Assembly: GCA_024516035.1 (NCBI GenBank)
Contig: CM044964.1
Coordinates: 11,201,914-11,265,913, forward strand
DNA from: Bactericera cockerelli
Taxonomy: Eukaryota > Arthropoda > Insecta > Hemiptera > Triozidae
Direction of reading: 5' to 3'
Length of the DNA: 64,000 nucleotides
Every line of letters begins with the position of its first letter. The first letter of the stretch is position 1. This document shows positions 6,710 through 62,429 of this stretch, in pieces. Made by a program: the position numbers and the translations under genes. The notes below the pieces were generated by a model, which was given only the letters and a program-made list of their open reading frames with translations, did no database searches and had not been told where the DNA came from.

Positions 6710-6875
6710 CTGTCTGGGTCCCCCTGCGGATTATCACCATCGCTGGAAATGCTCGACGCCTGTTTGACCAGCGGTTTACTGGTGGCTGGGACACCTCCCG
6801 GCAGAATCTCCTCGCTCCGGTGAACGGTAAACGAGGATTTTCCCTTCGCGCCGAAACCTAGCCTACGCCGTCGGC
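6710..6875 (-). CDS. Rim: Rim exon: LGFGAKGKSSFTVHRSEE region
   Basis: Encodes GRRRRLGFGAKGKSSFTVHR, SEEILPGGVPATSKPLVK and QASSISSDGDNPQGDPD plus two bases. The acceptor is ctgtcccaaag|GC, which closes G|GC with the preceding exon. The donor I prefer is GACAG|gttaac, a weak one; GATG|gtgata upstream and GATGAG|gtttcc downstream are alternatives. The acceptor region is duplicated in tandem with a 55-bp period. The 3' boundary is the least secure of the Rim exons. Confidence 0.85.
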
Positions 6876-6962
6876 CTTTGGGACAGAGAGGAAGCACATT
6901 AGTGGGGGAAACCTATCATACGCCGTCGGCCTTTGGGACAGAGAGGAAGCAGATTAGTGGGG
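6853..6962. repeat. Rim: 55-bp tandem duplication of a Rim acceptor
   Basis: Two copies of a 55-bp unit: 6853 to 6907 covers the first coding bases of the Rim exon, its tag/aag acceptor and its pyrimidine tract, and 6908 to 6962 repeats it with four or so changes. The second copy keeps the pyrimidine tract and the AAAG|GCCGACGGCGTA junction but turns into non-coding sequence after it. Confidence 0.9.
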
Positions 6963-10295: not shown

Positions 10296-10346
10296 TCCTT
10301 TCTGTCAAAAATAAAAAGAATAACTAAACACCAGTTGCTTACTCAC

Positions 10347-11767
10347 CCACGCTCTTGCCGTTGTCATCCGACGGCACGTCAGCATTGGACAGGCTGCGGG
10401 AGAAGGTCCCCCTCTTCCCACCCGAGTCAGAGTGGTGCTGATTATGCTGCACAGACGACGCATTAGACCCAGAGGAGTGTCCATAGTCACTACAAGCAAA
10501 GTCAGCAGATACGGGAGCTGATGGATTAACAACGTCTACACTAGAGGACACTACAGATCTACTTGGACGGTCAAAACTATGCGAAACATTAGTCGTTGCG
10601 AATTTTGAGCTATTGGTATGGTCAAAACTATAACTATTGCTACTAGGTGGTACTGTTCTACTGAAAGAGGTATCTCTGTCCGTTGGTTCACCGTCCATAT
10701 AACTAGTGGAATCAAAGCTGAGGTTGTTGACAAAGTGGTCAGCACGCGTCTGTTCCGGGGAGCACTCATGGGAAGGGTATTCTTCAATACTGGGAAACCC
10801 TGTGGCGGTCAGAACAGGTTTCTTGAGCTGACTAACATGACGGGGGTGCAAGGCGTCGACTGGGTTTCTACTGAAAGCTTCAACGACTCTGTCTTGAATG
10901 TTCGCGTCGTGAAGTCTGTCAGAGCGTCTGTTTTCATCAGAGCTTCCAATATCTGTTGATCCTTCAGAGCCTTCTACATATCTGGAGTTCTCATCTGTCA
11001 TATCGACGGTTTGGTCAGTTACTCCAAGCCGAGTTTTCTTCTCTTTGGATACGTCAGTGCTGGAATCCAACTGGTTTGGAAACTTGAGTTTACCGGGGGA
11101 AGATTGTTTTGAGATTTCAGACTTGAGTCTCGTTGTGTTTCGTGTAGCATCATCCTTTTCCGACGGCTCTTGGTTTAGTTTAACAACACGGTTGTAGTCT
11201 CGTTCAAAACTGTGCGACTTTTTACCGATTTTTACAACAGGGTCGTCGCTACCGTCCGGTTCATTCTCACGAACCGCTAAATCAAGCGACTTAGTAGCAA
11301 CTACTTCACGATTTCTCGCGCGACTGAGGACGCTATCTTCATCTACGTGAGATTCTATACCTCGCATGCTATCTGTGTGTTTGCCAGAACTGATCAGAAT
11401 TCCGTCGTTCCCTAACACGATACCATCGCTTTCTTTGTAGATAATATTTCTGCTTAAAATTTCGCCCACTTTAGCAGACAAATCACAATTGCAAATAGTA
11501 CACCGACTGTCCAGCTGACCTTCTATCAAGTCGAAAGGTTTTGTTTTGACGATATTGAGCTTGGATTTCAAATCTCCTTTACTAGAGGAGCAAGATCTAC
11601 AAAATTTACTTTGAGTGGAGGAGTATGAAGTAGTTTTGGGGGTGGAAAAGTTAAAATCAGTGGGGGAGTCAGCGTTAAGTTCGGGGGTAGATTTGCTTTT
11701 CAAATCAGTGGAGGGATCTACTAAAAGAATATCTAAATACGAAGAGGCGTCAAGGTCTTTGGGCATG
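10347..11767 (-). CDS. Rim: Rim large exon (474 codons)
   Basis: A single open exon of 1,421 bp beginning MPKDLDASSYLDILLVD and ending DNGKSVG-, in phase with both neighbours (acceptor tatttccag|C, donor GCGTGG|gtgagt). It is hydrophilic, rich in Ser, Asp, Asn and Arg, and probably disordered. No counterpart is known to me in vertebrate RIM, so it looks like an insect expansion. About residues 56 to 94 it has CRSC, 29 residues, then CTICNC, the only Cys cluster in it and a possible metal site. The C-terminal third has GGKRGTFSRSLSNADVPSDD, which is RIM-like and confirms the reading frame. Confidence 0.93.
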
Positions 11768-12004
11768 CTGGAAATAAACCAGAGAAAGTTTTTGTTCAAT
11801 GAAATAAAACTCATTACACTTAATCTAAAATATGAACATATTGTGCAATGTGCATAGTACCAAATTCCATATTCATTAGCCGACAGTTGTGGCCACTTGA
11901 AGAATTCAGATTAGGTCTGACCTGAATTTTTCATCAGGACGTGGGTTATTATACAAATTTGAAAGGTTATAACTGCTTCTCGCTGCGAATCCCACCATCC
12001 AATC

Positions 12005-12698
12005 ACATCAACCTTACCCAGCCTGGGTTGGGACGTTTATTTGTAGTCCAATAGCCACATCAACCAGGGTGGGGCGCTTACTTGAAGTCTAATAGCCACA
12101 TCAACCTTACTCAGCCTTGGTGGGTCGTTTACTAGTAGTGCGCTAGCCAAATCAACCTCACTCAGCCAGGGTGGGGCGTTTACTTGTAGTCCAATAGCCA
12201 GATCAACCTCACCCAGCCTGGGTAGGGGGCGCTTACTTGTAGTCCAATAGCCAGATCAACCTCACCCAGCCTGGGTAGGGGGCGCTTACTTGTAGTGCGA
12301 TAGCCTCATCAATCTCTCTCAGCCTGGGTGGGGCGTTTACTTCTAGTCCAATAGTCACATCAACCTCACAAAGCCTGTAGGGCGCTTACTTGTAGTTCGA
12401 TTATTATTATAATTAAACAAGTTGGATCAAGTTTTATTTACAAAATAATGACATAGAATATAGTTATACATACACAGATATTAAAATTAAGAAAACAAAA
12501 CTTGATCAAGGGCGGTGCTAATGCCAACGGCATTCTCTTCCGCACCACCCTTCGATAGCCACATCAACCTCACCCAGCCTGGGTGGGGCGCTTACTTGTA
12601 GTGCGAGGAGCCACATCAACCTCACCCAGCCAGGGTTGGGCGTTTACTTGTAGTCCAATAGCCACATCAACCTCACCCAGCCTGGGCGGGGCGCTTAC
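12005..12698. repeat. Rim: Minisatellite of a Rim exon 3' end plus donor (about 10 copies)
   Basis: Units of about 51 bp (acttgtagtccaatagcc, then acatcaacctcacccagcc). On the minus strand each carries the last coding bases of the adjacent Rim exon (CTCCTCGCACTACA in the best copies) and a splice donor, AA|GTAAGC, next to an intron-side part that matches a dispersed repeat (57.28 kb). The true exon has AG|GTAAGC. A LINE fragment interrupts the array. Confidence 0.9.
12401..12550 (-). mobile_element. LINE 3' end (family B) inside the minisatellite
   Basis: About 150 bp whose right end (aagggcggtgctaatgcc) matches 62.06 to 62.11 kb. It is flanked by ttcga on both sides (12396 to 12400 and 12551 to 12555), and the array resumes in register after it. 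The left end is a taa-rich tail. Confidence 0.75.
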
Positions 12699-12864
12699 CT
12701 GTAGTGCGAGGAGCCGCGGGGCCGCTCGGACTGGGTGGAGAAGGCACTGCTCACGACGGAGTCCATGTCAGAGTCGTGGGGCGGGGGGCTGAAGCAGCGG
12801 CGGGGGTAGATGTTGAGGTCGCCGTCACTCACGCCACTCCACTGCCGCCGGCTGCTGCCGCCAC
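12699..12864 (-). CDS. Rim: Rim exon: AFSTQSERPRG region
   Basis: Encodes GGSSRRQWSGVSDGDLNIY, PRRCFSPPPHDSDMDS and VVSSAFSTQSERPRGSSHY plus two bases. AFSTQSERPRG is a phrase I associate with RIM between the RIM-BP site and C2B. The acceptor is gtggccag|GT (A|GT gives Ser) and the donor is CTACAG|gtaagc. It joins the next exon in phase (AG|C). The last 14 to 16 coding bases and the donor are the seed of the tandem array filling the next 0.7 kb of intron. Confidence 0.94.
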
Positions 12865-24381: not shown

Positions 24382-24497
24382 CTATAGGGCGGAGATAAGC
24401 TACGATGGGGCGGAGACTTGGATCTGGAGCGGGGGAGTGGGAGGCGGAGGCTGCAGAAGTGGGACCGCCCTTGTGACGGCGCCCCGCGGCTGCCCGA
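24382..24497 (-). CDS. Rim: Rim exon: Arg/Ser/Pro linker
   Basis: Encodes SGSRGAPSQGRSHF, then LPRSRSKSPPHRSLSPPY plus two bases. The SRSKSP...RSLSPPY run resembles the Ser/Arg/Pro repeats of the RIM linker. The acceptor is tttcctcag|TCG in phase 0 and the donor is CTATAG|gtgagt. It closes in phase with both neighbours (AG|G gives Arg before VHEPPG). It is short and low in complexity, so assignment depends mainly on phase, splice sites and position. Confidence 0.87.
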
Positions 24498-26041: not shown

Positions 26042-26656
26042 TCACCAATCTTTATTCAGATACTCCATGTAGAAGTCCTCGTGAGTCTTGATCCTTTTCT
26101 TCTTCTGACTCTGCGAGTTCTGAATAAAATCATTCTCCAGGAGTTTGCGCAGCTGCTCGTTCTCAAACAGCAACCGATTCAGTAACTTGTCCCGTTTTTC
26201 ATTGATGAACTTCAATTCCAAATATTCAATTTTCTCCTGCAGGTCCCAATTTTCTGGCAGGATGAGAGGCTCACTGCATAGGTCTTTGGGTTTCAAACCC
26301 GCCCCATCACTACCGTCAGATTTGAAGTAAAGTTTAACTCGCTCGTTGAGCATTTGAATCAGAATTCCCTGCTTTTCAATTTCATCTTCGTATTTTGTTT
26401 TGATTCGGTGCAGGTATTTGAAGCATGCCATTGTTTGCAGCTGTTGTTCTTCGTAAGCTGTTTGGAATCTGGTTAGTTGCGCTGTCATTTCGACGAGTCT
26501 ATCGTCGTAAGCTTTCACCTGACCAACGTACGTCGCCACCTGAGATTCCAGATAGTCATTCTCTTTCTCATATTTGGCGGCCACTCGATCGTTGAATTGT
26601 TTCAAACAAATGGTTTCGTTTTTGTACAGCTCCATTTCTTTTGTAAGTTGTTCGAT
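26042..26656 (-). CDS. Coiled-coil exon 2 of nested gene or alternative Rim start
   Basis: Continues in phase 0 from the exon at 27.3 kb (acceptor aatctccag|ATC): IEQLTKEMELYKNE, a long coiled coil through ERVKLYFKS, a short break (PKDLCSEPLILPENWDL), then a second coiled coil ending in a Lys-rich KKKRIK tail and YLNKDW, stop TGA. The two exons give 275 residues of almost continuous coiled coil, suggesting a structural or scaffold role (inference). The stop is embedded in TTG|gtgagt, a good splice donor. Splicing there would leave two bases and join the Rim exon at 25.3 kb in frame. No AATAAA lies between the stop and that exon. The family is not recognised. Confidence 0.65.
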   Translation of the reverse strand: MEQLTKEMELYKNETICLKQFNDRVAAKYEKENDYLESQVATYVGQVKAYDDRLVEMTAQLTRFQTAYEEQQLQTMACFKYLHRIKTKYEDEIEKQGILIQMLNERVKLYFKSDGSDGAGLKPKDLCSEPLILPENWDLQEKIEYLELKFINEKRDKLLNRLLFENEQLRKLLENDFIQNSQSQKKKRIKTHEDFYMEYLNKDW

Positions 26657-27281
26657 CTGGAGATTCAAATTATTTTGTGATCAAAAGAAGCATATAGAAG
26701 TTGGTTCATTGGGGAATGCACTATCGAGAGAAGCTCAATAGATGGTTTACAAGTGAAGAACATAACCAAAACAAGGTTTTCTGTAATACTATAATGAATT
26801 CGTAAGCCGGAAATTCGTATGACGCACTGCGATGAAATACTTTCTGGAGGTTTTCGTGGTCCAATGATATTCATTGGAAGATGCTGCAAAAAAATACCTA
26901 CCGATAGACCTATTTTTAATCTTTATAATCTGTATTTCTTGGAACTTTCAAAAACAAAAATAAATTTTCAAGTTTCGTTAACACACCCCACAGACAGGAA
27001 CAGTCTAAGCATATTGTTAAATAATGTTAGTTACAAGATTTTAGGTAGAGACTGCTTTCTACTTTTCTTATATTATAGAAAGGAAAGTAATAAAATCACG
27101 CAACATTTTCGATAGTCAGTTTTCACTGCCGAAGCACATTTTAGGGTCCCCAGAGCTTAAATACAAAACTTCAGCTATTGGCCTGTATGTCGCTCCTATT
27201 GTAAAAAAAAAATATCTCAAGAACGGTATAAGCTAGAGACTTGAAATTTGGTATGGACCAAACCTTCATCTTTCTTTTTAC

Positions 27282-27494
27282 CTGACTGTCATATTTTCTT
27301 TCCAGTTCCCTCTCATTTCCACTTTCATCAATTCCATTTGCTCTTGTTGCTTTTTTATTGATATGTTTCTCCATTACTTCTAGTCGTCTCTTGAGAATAT
27401 CATTCTCCACTTTGAGCTCATCCATAGTTCGATTAAAATCAATCTTGTAGAGATCCTCCATCCGAATATTGTGGCTATTAGGTGGACCAATCAT
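27282..27494 (-). CDS. Coiled-coil exon 1 of nested gene or alternative Rim start
   Basis: Reads MIGPPNSHNIRMEDLYK and then a heptad-rich helix (TMDELKVENDILKRRLEVME), ending KYDSQ at donor CAG|gtaaaa in phase 0. The ATG lies in an insect-like initiation context (caaaATGa), and an in-frame stop lies about 40 bases upstream. No pyrimidine tract precedes it, so it fits a first coding exon better than an internal one. It sits in the Rim intron between 28.8 and 25.4 kb on the same strand. I do not recognise the family. A long in-frame reading (NNPPRRQYK) just before the ATG leaves open a start further upstream. Confidence 0.6.
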
Positions 27495-27974
27495 TTTGTA
27501 CTGTCTTCTTGGTGGATTATTTTTGAACTGATATTTTTTTTAAGTTATTTAGATTGATTTTCGCTTCTAAAATAGTTCAATTTTTTCCTAGATGCGGTAT
27601 TTTTTTCCTGTTTTTTTGGTGGAATGTTTCTGCAGTGACGTGAATTTTGCACCGAATTAGTTATTACATTTTTTTAAATGAAAATAGTAAAGCATGAATA
27701 GCGCAGTAAATGATTGATTGTCAACTATACGAGGAAAATGAACAGTAACTTGAAACTTCAAAGCAAATGCTACTCACTCAGATTGGTAAAATCATAACTC
27801 AGAAGGACTGATGTTCAGTCGGAAAGAATCATTTGATTTCAGAATTCAACAATAAATAATTCTACTGGCCTTTCATTTACTTGCTTCTTAGAAAGTCTTC
27901 CGGACATACATAATAATGAAAACAGCGAGTGTCGATGGGACGTTGAATACAGCAGTTCTTGTTCTGTCACTGAC

Positions 27975-29640: not shown

Positions 29641-29715
29641 ATTATGTACAAAAAAGATTCTTTTACTTCTCCACCGATACTTCCGGAAATGTACAAGGGG
29701 AGGGGGGGTCAAATA

Positions 29716-30385
29716 GAACCCGAGACTCACGTGTTTGGTCAGATAGAACCCAAGACTCACGTGTTTGGTCAGATATTATTATTATAGTATGCATTATTAG
29801 ATAAGATAAAATTATTTACAGTAAAATATTTTGAAATTATAAAGAAAAAATATATAAATTGAACAAATAAACAAGAAAGAAAAAAAGAGAATAAAGCTAA
29901 TGTCCTACCTAAAGGGCGGGGTTATTGCCTGTGGCAATCTCTTCCACCCAACCCTTAGAATAGAACCCAAGACTCACGTGTTTGGTCAGATAGAACCCGA
30001 GACTCACGTGTTTGGTCAGATAGAACCCGAGACTCACGTGTTTGGTCAGATAGAACCCGAGACTCACGTGTTTGGTCAGATAGAACCCGAGACTCACGTG
30101 TTTGGTCAGATAGAACCCGAGACTCACGTGTTTGGTCAGATAGAACCCGAGACTCACGTGTTTGGTCAGATAGAACCCAAGACTATTGTGTTTGGTCAGA
30201 TAAAACCCAAGACTCACGTGTTTGGTCAGATAAAACCCAAGACTCACGTGTTTGGTCAGATAGAACCCGAGACTCACGTGTTTGGTCAAATAGAACCCAA
30301 GACTCACGTGTTTGGTCAGATAGAATCCGAGACTCACGTGTTTGGTCAGATAGAACCCGAAACTCACGTGTTTGGTCAGATATTA
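29716..30385. repeat. Rim: Minisatellite of the C2A exon 3' end plus donor (16 copies)
   Basis: Exact 30-bp period. Each unit, read on the minus strand, is the last 18 coding bases of the C2A exon (TTCTATCTGACCAAACAC) plus 12 intron bases starting GTGAGT. Two units lie at 29.72 to 29.78 kb and fourteen at 29.96 to 30.385 kb. Only one unit (near 30184) has lost the GT. A family A LINE 3' end (29780 to 29957) sits between the two blocks, and a near copy of it lies at 30755 to 30925. Confidence 0.93.
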
Positions 30386-30434
30386 TTATTATTATTATTA
30401 TAGTATGCTTTTTTTTAGTATCATTATATTATAG

Positions 30435-30750
30435 TATTATTATAAACAGGGAGTAGACCAGCATTGGCTTGGTTCTGGGGGACCTTGTCAATTAGTAACC
30501 TAATTTTAAAGACAGTGGTAGAGTTGCTGAGTCGTTCCTCCACTGTCTGGCTACCATCGTTCACGATGACGCCACCCTATGATGATGCTTTATTCATCAT
30601 AGGGTGTCGTCATCGTGAACGATGGTAGCCAGACAGTGGAGGAATGACTCAGCACTTCTACCACTGTCTTTACAAGGAGGCTAATAATTGACAAGGGCCC
30701 CCAGAACCAAGCCAATGCTGGTCTACTCCCTGTTTATAGTCCCCCAGCCA
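30435..30750. repeat. Inverted pair of the 10.07-kb dispersed repeat
   Basis: The reversed copy (30435 to 30590) and forward copy (30597 to 30750) meet at gatgatgctttattcatcat. Arms of about 150 bp share gtggcgtcatcgtgaacg and gggagtagaccagcatt, so the transcript could fold into a long hairpin. Confidence 0.85.
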
Positions 30751-30754
30751 GATG

Positions 30755-30925
30755 CTTTATTAGGTAAGACAAAAATATATACAGTAAAATACAATGAAAT
30801 TATAAAGAAAAAATATATAAATTGAACAAATAAACAAGAAAGAAAAAAAGAGAATAAAGCTAATGTCCTACCTAAAGGGCGGGGTTATTGCCTGTGGCGA
30901 TCTCTTCCACCCAACCCTGAGAATA
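30755..30925 (-). mobile_element. LINE 3' end (family A)
   Basis: Reversed copy ending cctacctaaagggcggggtt, near-identical to 29780 to 29957. It lies within the first bases of the intron after the C2A exon, 15 to 20 bases from the donor. Confidence 0.75.
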
Positions 30926-30940
30926 GAACCCGAGACTCAC

Positions 30941-31172
30941 GTGTTTGGTCAGATAGAACCACTCGGGTTCGTCGTTGCACAGGGAGCTGCTCAGTTCAAT
31001 CAGCACCTCGCCCAGGAAGTCATTGACCCCGTAGCGAGTGTAGTCCCACACCGTGATCTCAATGGTCCTCAGCTTCAGGTCAGACCGGCGGATCCCCGGG
31101 TAGAAGAAGCTCTGGCTCCACTTGGGGTCGTTCGTGTTCGCCAACGTCTTGGTGCGACGTTTCGACTTTTCA
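30941..31172 (-). CDS. Rim: Rim exon: C2A domain, second part
   Basis: Completes C2A: SEKSKRRTKTLANTNDPKW, LRTIEITVWDYTRYG, NDFLGEVLIEL and EPEWFYLTKH. The phrases KSKRRTKT, DPKW and EITVWD are diagnostic for RIM C2A. The acceptor is ctctcttcgcag|T (AG|T gives Ser) and the donor is AAACAC|gtgagt in phase 0. Both ends of this exon have been duplicated into the introns: the acceptor once at about 31.23 kb, and the donor junction about 16 times between 29.7 and 30.4 kb. Confidence 0.95.
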
Positions 31173-31410
31173 CTGCGAAGAGAGAGAGAGAGAGGAATAT
31201 TATGTTTTGGTAGAGAATACCTATTATATGCTAGTGTTTCACTGCGAAGAGAGAGGGAGAGAATTGAATTGAATTGAATAAAATAGTTCTTTTTATTTTT
31301 TGTACAATAATAATATTTGTTAATATTATCTCCTAAGCTTATGCAAACTTCTGAGGAATATTATGTTTTGGTAGAGAATACCTATTATATACTAGTGAAA
31401 TTTATATTCA
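31173..31410. repeat. Rim: Duplicated acceptor region of the C2A exon
   Basis: The sequence ttcactgcgaagagagagag at the exon edge recurs at about 31227. The intervening aggaatattatgttttggta recurs at 31351, so there are two to three imperfect copies, the third lacking the exon edge. Confidence 0.8.
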
Positions 31411-39011: not shown

Positions 39012-42000
39012 CTATGAGGAGGATACGGTCGTAAGGAATGAAGAGGATGCGGTCATGAGGAATGAAGAGGATGTAAATAAGAGACAAGAGATGGTATGCA
39101 TTAGGGACATGGGAACATAAAAGTTATACAGGAATCGGGGATTGATGGAATAGAGGAAGAAGATGAAAGATAGGTAAGAATGGAATAGCAAACATGATGA
39201 TTGGATGTAGGAGGGATGAGAAACAGTAGAATGAAAAATAGGAAAAAGATAATGACGAAAACGATGTAAATAAGGTTATGAAAGATGAAATGATGAAAAG
39301 ATTTGAAGTAACGGAATTTTAAAAATTAGATATGAGTAGGATGACAGAAAGTGGAAGGATCAAATTGGACGTTAGAACAAAAGAAGGAAAAGAAAAAACA
39401 GAAGCAGAGTCGACAATTGAAATAATTAATGAAAACAGAAACAGGCATGACAAGACACAAAACAGAATTGATAAAATATAAACAAGCATAGATAAAAAAA
39501 ATGTATCTGGAAAACGAGAGAGAAACTGTTTCTATGGGAGGAAATTATTTTATTTATTTTTAGGAAATAAATAAAATTATATCCCGCTAGAAAAGAAAAT
39601 TACGGAGATTCTTTACGGAGACACACGGTGGAAAATGTCAAAAAAAAGAATAGTAATAGATAGGTAGTGAAAATAAATCTAAATGACTGTGGGTACGAAG
39701 TTCAGCATTAACATGGATACTCGCAGTAAAGAAGGTAGCATTGATTATTTTTTTAATATCGCCAAAATATTAACCTCACCTGTAATCAACATAAATAATA
39801 TCGAATTAACAGGTAGGCCAGAATTAGGTATGTTTTATAGTATGTACGAGTATAGGTTCAATGAAAAATTAAATGTTGTATTGGTTTTATTGCACATTGC
39901 ATAATCAAATAGTTTTAACGGCGAACATAAAAATTGTTCTAAAATAGATATCTTTTACGAAAATTATGTCATAAATAAAACTGAAATTAAGTGTTCCTTG
40001 CTTCCATTTCGTATTTGGAATATTTATTATTATTTTATTGTAAATGTCGGTAATTTTACTGGTTGTATGAGTTTTATTCCATTTTATTCTCCTGCAAAAT
40101 CAATAGAGCTTCCTAAAAAAGAGTTTCATAGAAATAATATGATTAAATTAAGATTATTTATTTTACCGCAGTAGTTTTCTGGACATTTTCCATACCGGTG
40201 TACCTACAGCTAGAATAAATGGAAATATCATGCCAGAAGTAACAAGAAGAAAATTAGGTAAGTAACGGAATGCATAAACTCTCCTTGAATTAGAAAATTA
40301 GTTTTATTTTTTTAAACTAGGTGGAAATTTAGTTTATTCCGTTCATAGTTTTTTATCTTGGGTATCGCTAAATATACCAATCACAAACATAATAATAATG
40401 TATGTACTTGTACGGAGCCTGGGAATATTTTTTTAAACTGACATACTAATAATTATGATATTATGTATTTACAATGTACATTGATAGTACATTAAATTAT
40501 TCATGTCATTGTGATATCTTAGAAAAAGAAAACTTTGAGGTAATAGTGACGCTTGATTCAAAAATGAAACAAAAAAAAATTGGTATGGGTTCATTTTCGA
40601 CCGCCAAGCAAAAAAAGTAGGTAAATGTTTTTTTTATCAGAGAGTGGCCAATCTTGTTTTTGACCGGTCTTGAAAATTAATTTTTCTCAATGAATGTTTA
40701 TGAATTCCGCTGAATTAGACCTGACGTAAAAGTTACATAGACATAGTCAAAACATTCCAAACAAAACACATCGATATGGAAAAATATATTAAAAGGAGAG
40801 AATGAAGAAATCCGATTATTCGAATGTAAATAAAGCACATGCTCATTGAAGTCTAAATTTGAACAAAGATTCGAATCGAACAAAGATCGATATCGAAGTC
40901 TAAATTCGAACAAAGATTTGAATCGAACAAAGATCGATATCGAAGTGAGTGGCTCAATTTTTTTACTACACCTTTTTTTAGGTCAAAATTTTTGGATTGG
41001 TCTTTGTTTGCACTAAAGTCTTGATTTCTAGTAGATTTCGCATATAAAAATAATTAACTCTTTAAAAAATACAGTTAAAATATGTATATTTATTTAAATT
41101 ATGTAAAGTGAAGAGAGCTATTGACGTTTTGTATATAATAATTATGTATCCTAATCCCGAGACCGTCCATCTTCTTAGGACTGAAGACCTCACCAGACGT
41201 TTGAAGCGGATAAAACCACATGAACTAATTAATTACCTAGGTACTACTTTCATCTGATAACCACCCAACAGCCGAGTCTGCTTATGTCCACGTATACATA
41301 AGTTATTTTAATTTACATTAGTAGTTTAAGATTAGAATAAAAATACTTATTAGTTTTAAGAACTAGATTGTATTAATAAATTTAGTTCCCAGGGACTCTA
41401 TTAAAAAAAAATGTATCTAACTATCGAAAACAGTTTAGACAGTAAGACAGAGGATAGTTCACAAATAATATTCTCATCATTCTTCTTTCACTTTAGCTTT
41501 TTCCCAATCACTTGGGGTTGGCATTGGTCAACCTTGAGTTCAATGTTGAGGTTGGTTCGTTCGCGCATTCCTACTTCCACTTTTTACAACTGGATGCCCT
41601 TCCTAACACCAACACTGCAAAGGGCGCTAAAATTTTGTGTTGTTTCTCTGGCCTGACATGGCTAATGTCGTGTCTGTAACGTCCCTCGGAGAGACTCTTC
41701 TCATCATTAATCTTGCTTTAGCTTTAGTTTTACGTTTTAGATAGGTTAGAGACACTTGTAAATGGGTATCTCCCGTCAACTTATAAATAATAATATTAAA
41801 TTTTGGGACCCCATTGTTCACAAGGATTGAAATTTTGTACTTTTTGAAATCGAAATCTCACGCATTTATGACAAGGAAACAGTCCATCTCAATTCTTATA
41901 TTTTTTACCTTAAACCCTTGTTTTACCATTAAATTTTTCATAATTATTGAATACATGTTTTTATTGCTAAACTCGAAATGCAAAAATACAAATTGGACAG

Positions 42001-48939: not shown

Positions 48940-49059
48940 CTTTCTCACTATCGTGCTCCTCGCAGCTAGTGCCCTCGGAGGTGGACCTCAACTCATCCTC
49001 GGAGGAGGAGAAGGAGCCCTGCTGGATGAGTTGACTCTGGGACATGGCGGGGCCTGCGC
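48940..49059 (-). CDS. Rim: Rim exon: acidic Ser linker
   Basis: Encodes AGPAMSQSQLIQQ, GSFSSSEDELRSTSE and GTSCEEHDSEK plus one base. It matches the SLSSSEEEL...TSC block of vertebrate RIM, which lies between the zinc finger and PDZ. The acceptor is ctctccag|GC and the donor is GAAAG|gtaagc. It joins the preceding exon in phase (G|GC gives Gly). It can join either the small exon at 43.9 kb or directly the exon at 39.0 kb; the direct join keeps the downstream frame. Confidence 0.93.
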
Positions 49060-49613: not shown

Positions 49614-49844
49614 ATTTAAAGTGACAGGATTCTCCTGTTAGAGCTCGTCCATCCAACCACTAAATAAGTCGTAGACAGATGGATGTCCGGTTTTCAGCGT
49701 AGATTTGGTAGTTGTGTTTGTGTAGTTGTGATATCACGAAAGAGATTAAACACAAATAAGATAACTTTTTGTACTGAAAACACTTACGACCACGTCAAAT
49801 AATAATAATACTCACCTGTACTCAACTCAGGCTAACAGCTCCGC

Positions 49845-51088
49845 ATATACTCACCTGGAGGTTTCACCTGTACGCCCGTGTACTCACCTGGAGGTTTCAC
49901 CTGTACGCCCGTGTACTCACCTGGAGGTTTCACCTGTACGCCCGTGTACTCACCTGGAGGTTTCACCTGTACGCCCGTGTACTCACCTGGAGGTTTCACC
50001 TGTACGCCCGTCTGGCCGCCCGTCTACTCACCTGGAGGTTTCACCTGTACGCCCGTGTACTCACCTGGAGGTTTCACCTGTACGCCCGTCTGCCCGTCTA
50101 CTCACCTGAAGGTTTCACCTGTACGCCCGTCTGGCCGCCCGTGTACTCACCTGGAGGTTTCACCTGTACGCCCGTCTGGCCGCCCGTCTACTCACCTGGA
50201 GGTTTCACCTGTACGCCCGTGTACTCACCTGGAGGTTTCACCTGTACGCCCGTCTGCCCGTCTACTCACCTGAAGGTTTCACCTGTACGCCCGTCTGGCC
50301 GCCCGTGTACTCACCTGGAGGTTTCACCTGTACGCCCGTCTGCCCGTCTACTCACCTGAAGGTTTCACCTGTACGCCCGTCTGCCCGTCTACTCACCTGA
50401 AGGTTTCACCTGTACGCCCGTCTGCCCGTCTACTCACCTGAAGGTTTCACCTGTACGCCCGTCTGCCCGTCTACTCACCTGAAGGTTTCACCTGTACGCC
50501 CGTCTGCCCGTCTACTCACCTGAAGGTTTCACCTGTACGCCCGTCTGCCCGTCTACTCACCTGAAGGTTTCACCTGTACGCCCGTCTGCCCGTCTACTCA
50601 CCTGAAGGTTTCACCTGTACGCCCGTCTGCCCGTCTACTCACCTGAAGGTTTCACCTGTACGCCCGTCTGCCCGTCTACTCACCTGAAGGTTTCACCTGT
50701 ACGCCCGTCTGCCCGTCTACTCACCTGAAGGTTTCACCTGTACGCCCGTCTGCCCGTCTACTCACCTGAAGGTTTCACCTGTACGCCCGTCTGGCCGCCC
50801 GTCTACTCACCTGGAGGTTTCACCTGTACGCCCGTGTACTCACCTGGAGGTTTCATCTGTACGCCCGTCTGCCCGTGTACTCACCTGAAGGTTTCACCTG
50901 TACGCCCGTGTACTCACCTGGAGGTTTCACCTGTACGCCCGTGTACTCACCTGGAGGTTTCATCTGTACGCCCGTCTGCCCGTGTACTCACCTGAAGGTT
51001 TCATCTGTACGCCCGTCTGGCCGCCGCCCGTGTACTCACCTGGAGGTTTCACCTGTACGCCCGTCCACCCCACCCCCCGTGTACTTAC
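49845..51088. repeat. Rim: Minisatellite of a Rim exon 3' end plus donor (about 31 copies)
   Basis: Read on the minus strand, each unit holds ACGGGCGTACAGGTGAAACC, then T(C/T)CAG|GTGAGTA: the final 25 coding bases of the exon at 51.09 to 51.23 kb plus its donor. Basic units are 33 bp. A run of about ten at 50.34 to 50.76 kb is 41 bp with an extra gtctgccc and a CTTCAG|GTGAGT junction, and others carry gtctggccgc spacers. Every unit keeps an AG|GTGAGT. Confidence 0.95.
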
Positions 51089-51232
51089 CTGGAGGTTTCA
51101 CCTGTACGCCCGTCTGGCCGCCGCCCGTGCGCCGGTCCCGCTTCTTGTGAGACGAGGACTGGTCTGAGCTGAGTGAGTCATGGCGGTACTGCTGACTGGT
51201 GGAGGAGCCGGAGTATTGCTGACGCATCAGAC
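51089..51232 (-). CDS. Rim: Rim exon: linker with SLSSDQS motif
   Basis: Encodes GLMRQQYSGSS, then RHDSLSSDQSSSHKKRDRR and TGVQVKPP. The phrase DSLSSDQS is shared with the linker before the PDZ domain in vertebrate RIMs. The acceptor is cccgccag|GT and the donor is CCTCCAG|gtaagt. The exon begins with two bases, ends with one, and joins in phase to both sides. Its last 25 coding bases plus the donor are the source of the minisatellite that fills the next 1.2 kb of intron (49.85 to 51.09 kb). Confidence 0.93.
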
Positions 51233-52702: not shown

Positions 52703-52893
52703 CCTCGAGCTCCCCCCTGTAGTACCGCAGCTCCTCGTCCCGACTCCGGCTGGTGCTGTGTCGCATGTCCACCCCGCTATCACTGGAGGGGATCCTGTAG
52801 GGGGGCGTGTCCTGCTGCGAGTACTGTCGTCGGAGACCCGAGTTGTTACGAGTCAACATCGGCTGGTTCTCCTTCTCGCTGGCCGAATGGGCT
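52703..52893 (-). CDS. Rim: Rim exon: linker after zinc finger
   Basis: Starts with the last base of a split Arg codon, then AHSASEKENQPM and NNSGLRRQYSQQD, and ends EELRYYRGELE plus one base. The Arg/Ser-rich, Tyr-containing linker matches the region after the zinc finger in RIM proteins. The acceptor is ctttctcag|A and the donor is CGAGG|gtgagt. Phase agrees with both neighbours (in on 2, out on 1). The intron opens directly into a 28-bp tandem duplication of SINE-like sequence. Function beyond a flexible linker is not evident. Confidence 0.93.
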
Positions 52894-52969: not shown

Positions 52970-54400
52970 CAAAAAAAAAAAAAAAAAAAAAAGATGTTTT
53001 TTCTTTAAATCAAATATAGACCACCTTCAACATAAATAAGTTATAAGAAAAAAGATGTTTTTTCATTAAACCAAATATGGACCACCTTCAACATAAATAT
53101 TTTATAAGAAAAAAGATGGTTTTTCTTTAAACCAAATATAATAATAATATCGCCTTATTTATACTGCCCGATTAAGACTATTAAAGTCCCATTATTCCAG
53201 CAGTAAGCCCAAGACATATTATTCTGTGGTAAAAATCCCATATGGGAGGGTAACTTGTCATGTCCCGGCTGGGTTTCGAACCCACGACATCTGGATTCTC
53301 TAGATTCACAGAGTGCCGCCTTTACCACTGAGCTACCGGGACAGACGGTATATAGACCACCTTCAACATAATTAAGGTATAAGAAAAAAGATGGTTTTTC
53401 TTTAAACCAAATATAGACCTCTTTCAACATAAATAAGTTATAAGAAAAAAGATGGTTTTTCTTTAAACCAAATATAGACCACTTTCAACATAAATAAGTT
53501 ATAAGAAAAGAGATGTTTTTTCTTTAAATCAAATATAGACCACCTTCAACATAAATAAGTTATAAGAAAAAAGATGTTTTTTCATTAAACCAAATATGGA
53601 CCACCTTCAACATAAATATTTTATAAGAAAAAAGATGGTTTTTCTTTAAACCAAATATAATAATAATATCGCCTTATTTATACTGCCCGATTAAGACTAT
53701 TAAAGTCCCATTATTCCAGCAGTAAGCCCAAGACATATTATTCTGTGGTAAAAATCCCATATGGGAGGGTAACTTGTCATGTCCCGGCTGGGTTTCGAAC
53801 CCACGACATCTGGATTCTCTAGATTCACAGAGTGCCGCCTTTACCACTGAGCTACCGGGACAGACGGTATATAGACCACCTTCAACATAAATAAGGTATA
53901 AGAAAAAAGATGGTTTTTCTTTAAACCAAATATAGACCTCTTTCAACATAAATAAGTTATAAGAAAAAAGATGGTTTTTCTTTAAACTAAATATAGACCA
54001 CTTTCAACATAAATAAGTTATAAGAAAAGAGATGTTTTTTTCTTTAAATCAAATATAGACCACCTTCAACATAAATAAGTTATAAGAAAAAAGATGTTTT
54101 TTCATTAAACCAAATATGGACCACCTTCAACATAAATATTTTATAAGAAAAAAGATGGTTTTTCTTTAAACCAAATATAATAATAATATCGCCTTATTTA
54201 TACTGCCCGATTAAGACTATTAAAGTCCCATTATTCCAGCAGTAAGCCCAAGACATATTATTCTGTGGTAAAAATCCCATATGGGAGGATAACTTGTCAT
54301 GTCCCGGCTGGGTTTCGAACCCACGACATCTGGATTCTCTAGATTCACAGAGTGCCGCCTTTATAGACCACCTTCAACATAAATAAGTTATACGCCTTCT
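52970..54400. repeat. 519-bp higher-order repeat containing a SINE
   Basis: A base repeat of about 60 bp (accaccttcaacataaataag plus aaaaagatggtttttcttt) is organised into 519-bp blocks. Each contains one reversed family 1 SINE, at 53141 to 53345, 53660 to 53864 and 54179 to 54362. The third SINE is cut after gtgccgccttta and returns straight to the base repeat. The blocks are almost identical. Confidence 0.93.
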
Positions 54401-55255: not shown

Positions 55256-55416
55256 CTCTCCAGCTTAGGTCTCTTGTCTTCAAACATCATGTCCGCCTCA
55301 ATTTTCCTCATGATGGCGTCGCCCTGGGGGGTGCTGCCCATGCCCTTGTTGATCCACTGGCCCGTCTTAGAGAGGAGCTCCTGCTTCTTGCGACACAGGA
55401 TGCACACCCAGATCAC
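55256..55416 (-). CDS. Rim: Rim exon: end of zinc finger
   Basis: Begins VIWVCILCRKKQELL in phase 0 and gives the last Cys pair (CILC) of the RIM zinc finger. It then runs through KTGQWINKGMG and a charged tail ending KRPKLE plus a split Arg codon (AG|A). The acceptor is ccggcag|GTG and the donor is GAGAG|gtgac, with 53 codons plus two bases between. The 5' boundary of this exon has been copied four times into the upstream intron (55.75 to 56.14 kb), inside a GA-rich tandem region. The true acceptor therefore competes with near-identical decoys. Confidence 0.95.
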
Positions 55417-55419
55417 CTG

Positions 55420-56281
55420 CCGGACAGAGGGAGAGAAAGGGACGTGAGAGAGATGGAAAGAGAGCAAGAGACATGAGAGAGATGCAAAGAGAGCAAGGGA
55501 CATGAGAGAGATGGAAAGAGAGAGAGCAAGGGACATGAGAGAGATGGGAGGGAGAGAGAGAGAACAAGAGACATGAGAAAGATGGAAGGAGAGAGAGGGA
55601 ACAAGAGACATGAGAGAGATGGAAAGAGAGAAAGAGAGAGAGAGCAAGAGACATGAGAGAGATGGAAAGAGAGAGAGAGCAAGAGACATGAGAGAGATGG
55701 AAAGAGAGAGAGAGCAAGAGACATGAGAGAGATGGAAAGAGAGAGAGCAAGAGGATGCACACCCAGATCACCTGCCGGACAGAGGGAGAGAAAGGGACAT
55801 GAGAGAGATGGAAAGAGAGAAAGATGTGAGAACAAGAGACATGTGAGAGATGGAAAGAGAGAGAGCAAGAGGATGCACACCCAGATCACCTGCCGGACAG
55901 AGGGAGAGAAAGGGACGTGAGAGAGATGGAAAGAGAGAGAGCAAGAGGATGCACACCCAGATCACCTGCCGGACAGAGGAGAGAAAGGGACGTGAGAGAG
56001 GTGGAAAGAGAGAAAGATGTGAGAACAAGAGACATGTGAGAGATGGAAAGAGAGAAAGATGTGAGAACAAGAGACATGTGAGAGATGGAAAGAGAGAGAG
56101 CAAGAGGATGCACACCCAGATCACCTGCCGGACAGAGAGAGAGCAAGGGACATGAGAGAGATGGAAACAGAGAGAGAGAGAGATGTGTGAGAGAGAGAGT
56201 AATGAGAAATTGAGAGAGAGAGAGAGATGGAAAGAGAGAGAGAGAGAAAGAGAGAGAGAGATGTGTGTGAGAGAGACGGAA

Positions 56282-62224: not shown

Positions 62225-62429
62225 CTTGTTGGACCGTAGCGTGACCTTGCCCCCGCAGCGGGCGCAGCACCGAATGTTGCAGTAGTTGCACATGTGGCCC
62301 ACCCCGTCGGCGAACTTGGTCTTGAGACAGATGTGGCAGGTGGCGTCCAGCTCTACCCCGGCCTTCTTCTGCTGCTCCGAGCGCTGTCGAATGGACTGCT
62401 CTAGGAGGTGGACCTCGTCCTGCTTGCGT
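62225..62429 (-). CDS. Rim: Rim exon: helix and first part of zinc finger
   Basis: Encodes a charged helix (RKQDEVHLLEQ...) followed by most of the RIM zinc finger, with Cys pairs CHIC, CNYC and CARC and the family phrases KTKFADG and CARCGG. This module binds Munc13, and the helix beside it contacts Rab3-GTP. The acceptor is ttccag|ACGC and the donor is AAC AAG|gtgagt, which leaves phase 0. The next exon supplies the fourth Cys pair, so the domain is complete only after splicing. An in-frame ATG lies upstream but inside the intron-like stretch before the acceptor, so I do not take it as the start; the N-terminal exons are outside the window. The first intron bases resemble a tRNA-type SINE (gggttcgatccc). 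Confidence 0.95.

Follow-up and report, generated by a model that had tools for sequence, protein, structure and literature searches.

The window, by which we mean the whole 64-kb stretch of DNA analysed here, carries on its minus strand a gene of 20 exons (E1 to E19 plus E14b) that runs from position 62429 down to 1631 and whose exons, once joined, form a single stop-free frame of 1118 codons. Exons were placed from splice signals and phase and then compared with the Diaphorina citri protein P0001, the end of E12 and exons E14b, E16 and E19 being set by that protein together with phase; P0001 is itself a computed model and is without some of the exon ends included here, for instance the end of E10. 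Domain, PDB and protein searches were run on a join of the first 14 exons with a slightly shorter E12, in which Pfam places a RIM zinc finger (PF22601, 6.6e-27), a PDZ domain (PF00595, 4.8e-07) and a C2A domain (PF00168, 1.7e-17) in the expected order, and on these predicted domains the gene is assigned to Rim (RIMS). The best PDB sequence match of the same join is 4ts6, the C2A-like domain of Rab3 interacting molecule (E 1.8e-44), and the top protein among the best 120 listed of 2271 reported matches (7990 candidates scored) is D. citri M8J75_000155, at 81% across the full query; the D. citri alignment holds 664 identities in 812 aligned positions, with 101 gaps. Aligned to the window by tblastn, P0001 yields 19 segments, ten at 93-98% identity and nine at 46-85%, values that make the source likely to be a psyllid related to D. 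citri yet distinct from it; the lowest of all, at 46%, is the segment of E4. This exon and its surroundings are laid out as follows:

52703-52893, minus strand: Rim exon E3, the upstream partner of E4, placed from splice signals and phase
51089-51232, minus strand: Rim exon E4, source of the repeat unit (144 nt, phase 1-1, acceptor CCGCCAG|GT, donor CAG|GTAAGT)
51083-51091, minus strand: presumed true 5' splice site of E4, CAG|GTAAGT, with the G of GT at 51088
48940-49059, minus strand: Rim exon E5, the partner across the array (120 nt, phase 1-1)

The phases of E4 fit those of E3 and E5, and E4 is open within the 20-exon join. Its last base is 51089, followed at 51088 by the donor CAG|GTAAGTAC. 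The D. citri protein shows no conservation of the last bases of E4, and the exon end is accordingly placed by splice signals and phase; a protein search with E4 as a single exon returned no match.

Immediately past this donor, the intron between E4 and E5 is occupied by a tandem array built from the border itself:

49849-51088, minus strand: minisatellite of 31 tandem copies of the E4 end with a CAG|GTGAGT donor, in units of 33, 41, 45, 48 or 49 bp
51036-51038, minus strand: TGA inside the first decoy donor (within GTGAGT), in frame with E4
50356-50765, minus strand: ten identical 41-bp units of type A in succession, read from the unit string
49810-49818, minus strand: one extra CAG|GTGAGT outside the unit register, at 49815, found by motif search

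The 31 donors in register run from 51039 down to 49854 and all read CAG|GTGAGT, in agreement with the sequence-only reading of this DNA, which had counted about 31 tandem decoy donors; the site at 49815 comes on top of that count. That reading had further proposed that the units copy the exon end together with its donor, which is borne out by the 33-bp unit (the 25 last exon bases plus 8 intron bases) and, outside the donor core, by the 48-bp unit, which holds the 41 last bases of E4 with 39/41 identical. Its description of the units as 33 and 41 bp long covers 24 of the 31 (nine and 15, respectively) and leaves out five of 45 bp, one of 48 bp and one of 49 bp. The 45-, 41- and 33-bp types are without parts of the GGCGGCGGCCAG stretch and, given the exon match of the 48-bp unit and the unit types, can be read as deletion derivatives of the longer form. 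An inner CAG|GTGAAA within the units keeps its GT in 29/32 instances, E4's own copy counted. Across the 64-kb window the motif CAGGT[AG]AGT has 33 matches on the minus strand, each in E4 or the array, and none on the plus strand, and the array is thus no product of chance.

Ten unit types (A to J) follow one another in the order GHDBIDBJAAAAAAAAAACECBFECBFBBBB, after which a differing stretch, K, leads up to 49815. The array is known from one assembly, and its unit number may differ between individuals or reflect the assembly; for the run of ten identical 41-bp units both a recent expansion and an assembly effect are plausible. That the real array is of another length, expanded or collapsed in the assembly and especially in this ten-unit run, seems to us quite unlikely: ten identical units in succession are what such an error might leave behind, but the rest of the array mixes its unit types and carries block duplications, an order of ten types that assembly error would hardly invent. 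The block structure and the ten identical units together point to turnover by copying.

The coding consequences depend on the donor used. Only the donor at 51088, one of 33 sites of the form CAG|GT[AG]AGT, leaves the frame open into E5. Splicing from decoy 1 (51039) would lengthen E4 by 49 nt, shift the frame and run into a stop within E5, and splicing from any donor past it, including the one at 49815, would read the in-frame TGA at 51038-51036. Coding use of the array is therefore excluded by this TGA together with the frameshift from the first decoy, and we find it hardly credible that E4 ends further downstream with part of the array coding for added TGVQVKPPGEY repeats, even though the 33-bp units do read TGVQVKPPGEY stop-free in one frame: the TGA blocks every donor past the first decoy, and the first decoy shifts the frame. 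The earlier suggestion that distal donors would either add repeats or cause a frameshift accordingly loses its first half and keeps its second for decoy 1. Both E4 and E5 are symmetric exons (1-1), and the frame stays free of stops when either or both are skipped.

Copies of splice borders are also found at four further junctions of the Rim gene, each with sequence other than that of E4:

29700-30941, minus strand: second donor array, the donor CAC|GTGAGT of E10 (the C2A exon) with 16 copies in 30-bp units
12020-12699, minus strand: third donor array, the E15 donor CAG|GTAAGC with 10 weaker sites in units of about 51-52 bp
55416-56130, minus strand: the E2 acceptor, preceded by four copies that take in polypyrimidine tract, CGGCAG and the 20 bases at the exon start
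6853-6962, minus strand: the E18 acceptor and exon start, duplicated once, with a 55-bp unit

E10 ends in ACCAAACAC|GTGAGT, and its 16 border copies are found at distances of 573 to 1210 bases beyond this end and are interrupted by a repeat element whose ends are AAT-rich. The E15 sites, collected with one search pattern, comprise five CAA|GTAAGC, four others with GT and one without GT; two copies of the E15 border lie within 4/24 mismatches. A short element ending in AAT repeats interrupts the E15 array, and the E2 acceptor copies sit within a CT-rich array. The acceptor region of E10 is likewise doubled (31172-31260, minus strand), with TTCGCAG|TGAAA present twice about 70 bases apart, a duplicate too diverged for the 24-mer criterion used below and for that reason not among the counted junction copies. 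Downstream of E3, a 27-bp intronic duplication starts a few bases past the donor.

How the presumed true donor of E4 might be told apart from its copies was approached through predicted U1 pairing and predicted accessibility. With ordinary uridines in place of pseudouridines, the true donor has an estimated U1 duplex energy of -13.5 kcal/mol and the 32 others come out at -13.6 (14 sites), -13.8 (16 sites) or -14.1 kcal/mol (two sites), so that on this prediction the copies are at least as good as the true site, as had been claimed from the sequence, and pairing does not separate true from copied E4 donors. That decoys should always be weaker than their true donor was considered as a rule and rejected: in predicted pairing the E4 decoys are equal or slightly stronger, the E10 copies equal to the true E10 donor and the E15 sites weaker. 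At position +3, where the true E4 donor has A and its copies G, the 20 real donors of the gene have A nine times and G nine times; the two being equally common, the gene shows no preference either. Predicted accessibility is 0.011 at the true site, against a median of 0.023 over the 31 decoys, and no RNA structure that would hide the decoys is seen in this prediction for the true site and the 31 decoys. Neither pairing nor accessibility thus favours the presumed true donor, which counts against a preference for the exon-proximal site, whereas the Rim frame, intact only with the first donor, counts for it. What remains, after pairing and accessibility, to tell the donors apart is position: the proximal donor closes an exon of 144 nt and the register decoys would close exons of 193 to 1378 nt. 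Exon definition and the order of transcription, on general grounds, would favour the proximal donor.

The retention of GT in all 31 units had been taken as a possible sign of either very recent expansion or selection. Among the 33 columns common to the units only three vary between decoys (+8, -4 and -13), none of them among the nine columns of the donor core and three among the 24 others, in a count that takes unit heads from the true donor and decoys 1-30 and tails from decoys 1-31, and in which the A at +3 is that of the true donor. Three variable columns would all miss nine of 33 with a probability of 24*23*22/(33*32*31) = 0.37 (hand calculation), and because so few columns vary, donor retention in the 31 units is uninformative on selection; recent expansion stays plausible in view of the ten identical units, and at 0.37 the retention does not support selection. 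The same figure bears on the idea that the copied donors are selected as U1 sites, for instance against premature intronic polyadenylation or as a means of holding U1 near the exon. CAG|GTGAGT is indeed kept in 31/31 register units, and neither strand of the window has this strong consensus at any other place, but retention of this kind is expected often enough by chance with three variable columns in 33, and the sister arrays are less strict: GT is kept in 15/16 E10 copies and 9/10 E15 sites, being lost once in each, and the CAG of the true E15 donor is kept in 0/10. We therefore regard selection for U1 binding as very improbable.

We also examined whether exon borders attract repeats. The window holds 46 clusters of tandem repeats with a period of at least 10, covering 10,990 bp of the 64 kb. 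By a 24-mer control, with a near copy defined as at most 4 mismatches within 3 kb, 5/40 junction 24-mers have a near copy, compared with 1140/5557 intronic ones (Fisher two-sided P 0.24); another intronic sample gave 755/3652, complexity-matched intronic 24-mers 961/4974 (P 0.32), those matched for complexity and GC 481/2150 (P 0.18), and a background from which the five junction arrays were left out 802/5120 (P 0.83). Exon interiors have near copies at 3/807 24-mers and a shuffled window at 0/1500. No excess of near copies at junctions over intron is thus seen by this control in one gene with 40 junctions. The founder-based control, which counts events and not bases, expects, if each of the 46 clusters began as one unit placed at random, 0.87 to 1.54 founding units across a junction, depending on the period chosen; three clusters (E4, E15 and E18) span one contiguously (P 0.06, 0.09 or 0.20), and five do once the non-contiguous E2 and E10 copies are included (P 0.002, 0.004 or 0.02). 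A fourth cluster merely touches the acceptor of E6, where a 24-bp tandem repeat (39014-39073) ends two bases from the acceptor and covers its pyrimidine tract but not the AG. A hint that junctions carry more repeats than expected thus comes from the founder-based control and is not shared by the 24-mer control, both controls having been chosen after seeing the data and on one gene. If there is such an excess, it is perhaps due to GC-rich exon edges amid AT-rich surroundings.

Together, these results lead us to read the array, at a probability of roughly 0.78, as an intronic minisatellite founded by duplication across the exon border, behind an exon whose proximal donor would remain the preferred one. 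For the duplication mechanism, the proximal choice, the low use of decoys and the decay of their products we infer the following course. Tandem duplication across the border between E4 and its intron would have founded the array with a unit of about 48 bp (41 exon plus 7 intron bases); its probable primer is the short match CACGGG, present both close to the end of E4 and a little way into the intron. From this unit small deletions could have generated the forms of 45, 41 and 33 bp, and single units and whole blocks could have been multiplied to 31 by slippage or unequal exchange. The copies would turn into intron sequence through continued use, by the spliceosome, of the exon-proximal donor, which may be favoured in that it closes the normal 144-nt exon, is transcribed first and adjoins the exon's own enhancers. 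The decoys should be able to bind U1, yet their use is expected to be low and to fall mainly on decoy 1, with frameshifted or truncated products destined for decay.

Such an arrangement has relatives in human genes. The VNTR in intron 18 of human ABCA7 has 25-bp units whose first two bases are the GT of the exon-18 donor, with alleles of about 12 to 427 units (PMC5954066). According to the parts of that account used here, splicing from the donor of the following unit leaves one unit in the transcript and shifts the frame, independently of VNTR length and in about 2% if the percentages given follow the order of the listed events, and in 90% of cases in one brain area the canonical transcript is outweighed by the sum of the alternative ones (PMC5954066). 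As far as this account goes, the Rim array resembles ABCA7 in that it starts at the exon's donor, has units that carry potential donors, would yield a frameshift from the next donor and lies beside an exon that can be skipped in frame. It differs in that the ABCA7 units are described as intronic, whereas the Rim unit includes 25 to 41 exon bases, and in that gene and phylum are other ones, with RNA effects known for ABCA7 and the Rim array known from DNA alone.

The second relative is the 31-bp VNTR of human CBS, of which Lievers 2001 is reportedly the source. Named c.1444_1467+7(16_21), it consists by this numbering of 24 coding and 7 intron bases (PMC2630376). The anatomy at the exon edge is alike, 24 + 7 in CBS and 25 + 8 in the 33-bp Rim unit; as the CBS source gives it, the array there has 16-21 units all of 31 bp, in contrast to the 31 units of five lengths in Rim. 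The Rim array directly adjoins E4 and its unit includes the E4 donor, and by this anatomy, as read from the DNA, it belongs with the donor-containing exon-edge VNTRs of ABCA7 and CBS; that it would also work as they do is suggested by analogy. The array is probably an accidental repeat of the type known from these two human genes.

Further parallels come from excerpts of other work. Introns can be gained by tandem duplication of AGGT segments (PMC4974935), and human duplicated genes have internal tandem repeats where exons and introns meet (PMC2812944). Both share with Rim, on those excerpts, the supply of splice sites by tandem duplication of exon-edge sequence, and both differ from it in that the Rim copies lie inside the intron between two exons and that relatives were compared here as proteins only, in which introns leave no trace. 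At a duplicated 5' splice site of C. elegans unc-73, the original donor doublet is used more than its copy 18 nt downstream (PMC8865678); identical donors thus stand in tandem as in Rim and the upstream copy is used more, although the allele, as described there, is one engineered duplication of an unusual donor doublet only 18 nt apart. Intronic minisatellites are also described in the earthworm metallothionein gene, and a copied donor was not found among them in the sections drawn on. No universal rule favours one end among duplicated splice sites, a point taken from part of a paper that says splice donor at a junction which we take here as an acceptor. A literature search of open-licence papers found no such donor array in an insect gene.

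The ABCA7 comparison also speaks against regarding the array as harmless noise. Skipping of ABCA7 exon 19 is reported, in the part of the study considered here, at 12-45% depending on tissue and rises strongly with VNTR length (PMC5954066), and E4 and E5 of Rim could likewise be skipped with the frame left open. On these grounds the array might act as a splicing regulator in which the number of units adjusts how much of the Rim mRNA is productive, either because decoys are used and their products decay or because E4 or E5 is skipped. We consider this unlikely, given that donor retention is uninformative and that the sister arrays at E10 and E15 let their donors decay. Somewhat less likely still is a rheostat for a presynaptic active-zone protein, in which 33 near-equal donors would compete for U1, unit number would determine how much Rim mRNA is frameshifted or skips E4/E5, and the gene as a whole would tolerate or even use splice-site multiplicity at five junctions.

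The locus offers a natural competition assay in which one exon is followed by 31 copies of its border and donor, differing in distance and hardly in sequence. The same gene supplies donor copies that are equal (E10) or weaker (E15) in predicted U1 pairing, as well as copied acceptors (E2 and E18), and with RNA from Rim alone one could gauge the weight that position by itself has in the choice of a 5' splice site in an insect. The find further suggests that the repeat type of ABCA7 and CBS is not a human peculiarity.

Some smaller features of the host gene were noted along the way. E13 (24382-24497, minus strand) shows two apparent compensating frameshifts relative to D. citri, RSHFCSLRLPLPRSRSKSP vs RSHSAASASHSPRSRSKSP. 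A long open frame on the minus strand (10342-11910, 523 codons) was considered as an exon and dropped, only the E16 end having matched D. citri; the rest of the open frame (10490-11910), which runs into E16, may be intronic or an alternative exon. Between E11 and E12, also on the minus strand, 26045-27539 holds two long open frames of 212 and 122 codons with coiled-coil-like sequence, for which a Pfam search gave no match at 0.01 and which perhaps represent a nested gene or a retrocopy. Two weak Rfam tRNA matches of equal score (53261-53342 and 53780-53861, minus strand; gathering scores) lie 519 bases apart and are probably copies of a tRNA-derived SINE within a larger duplication.
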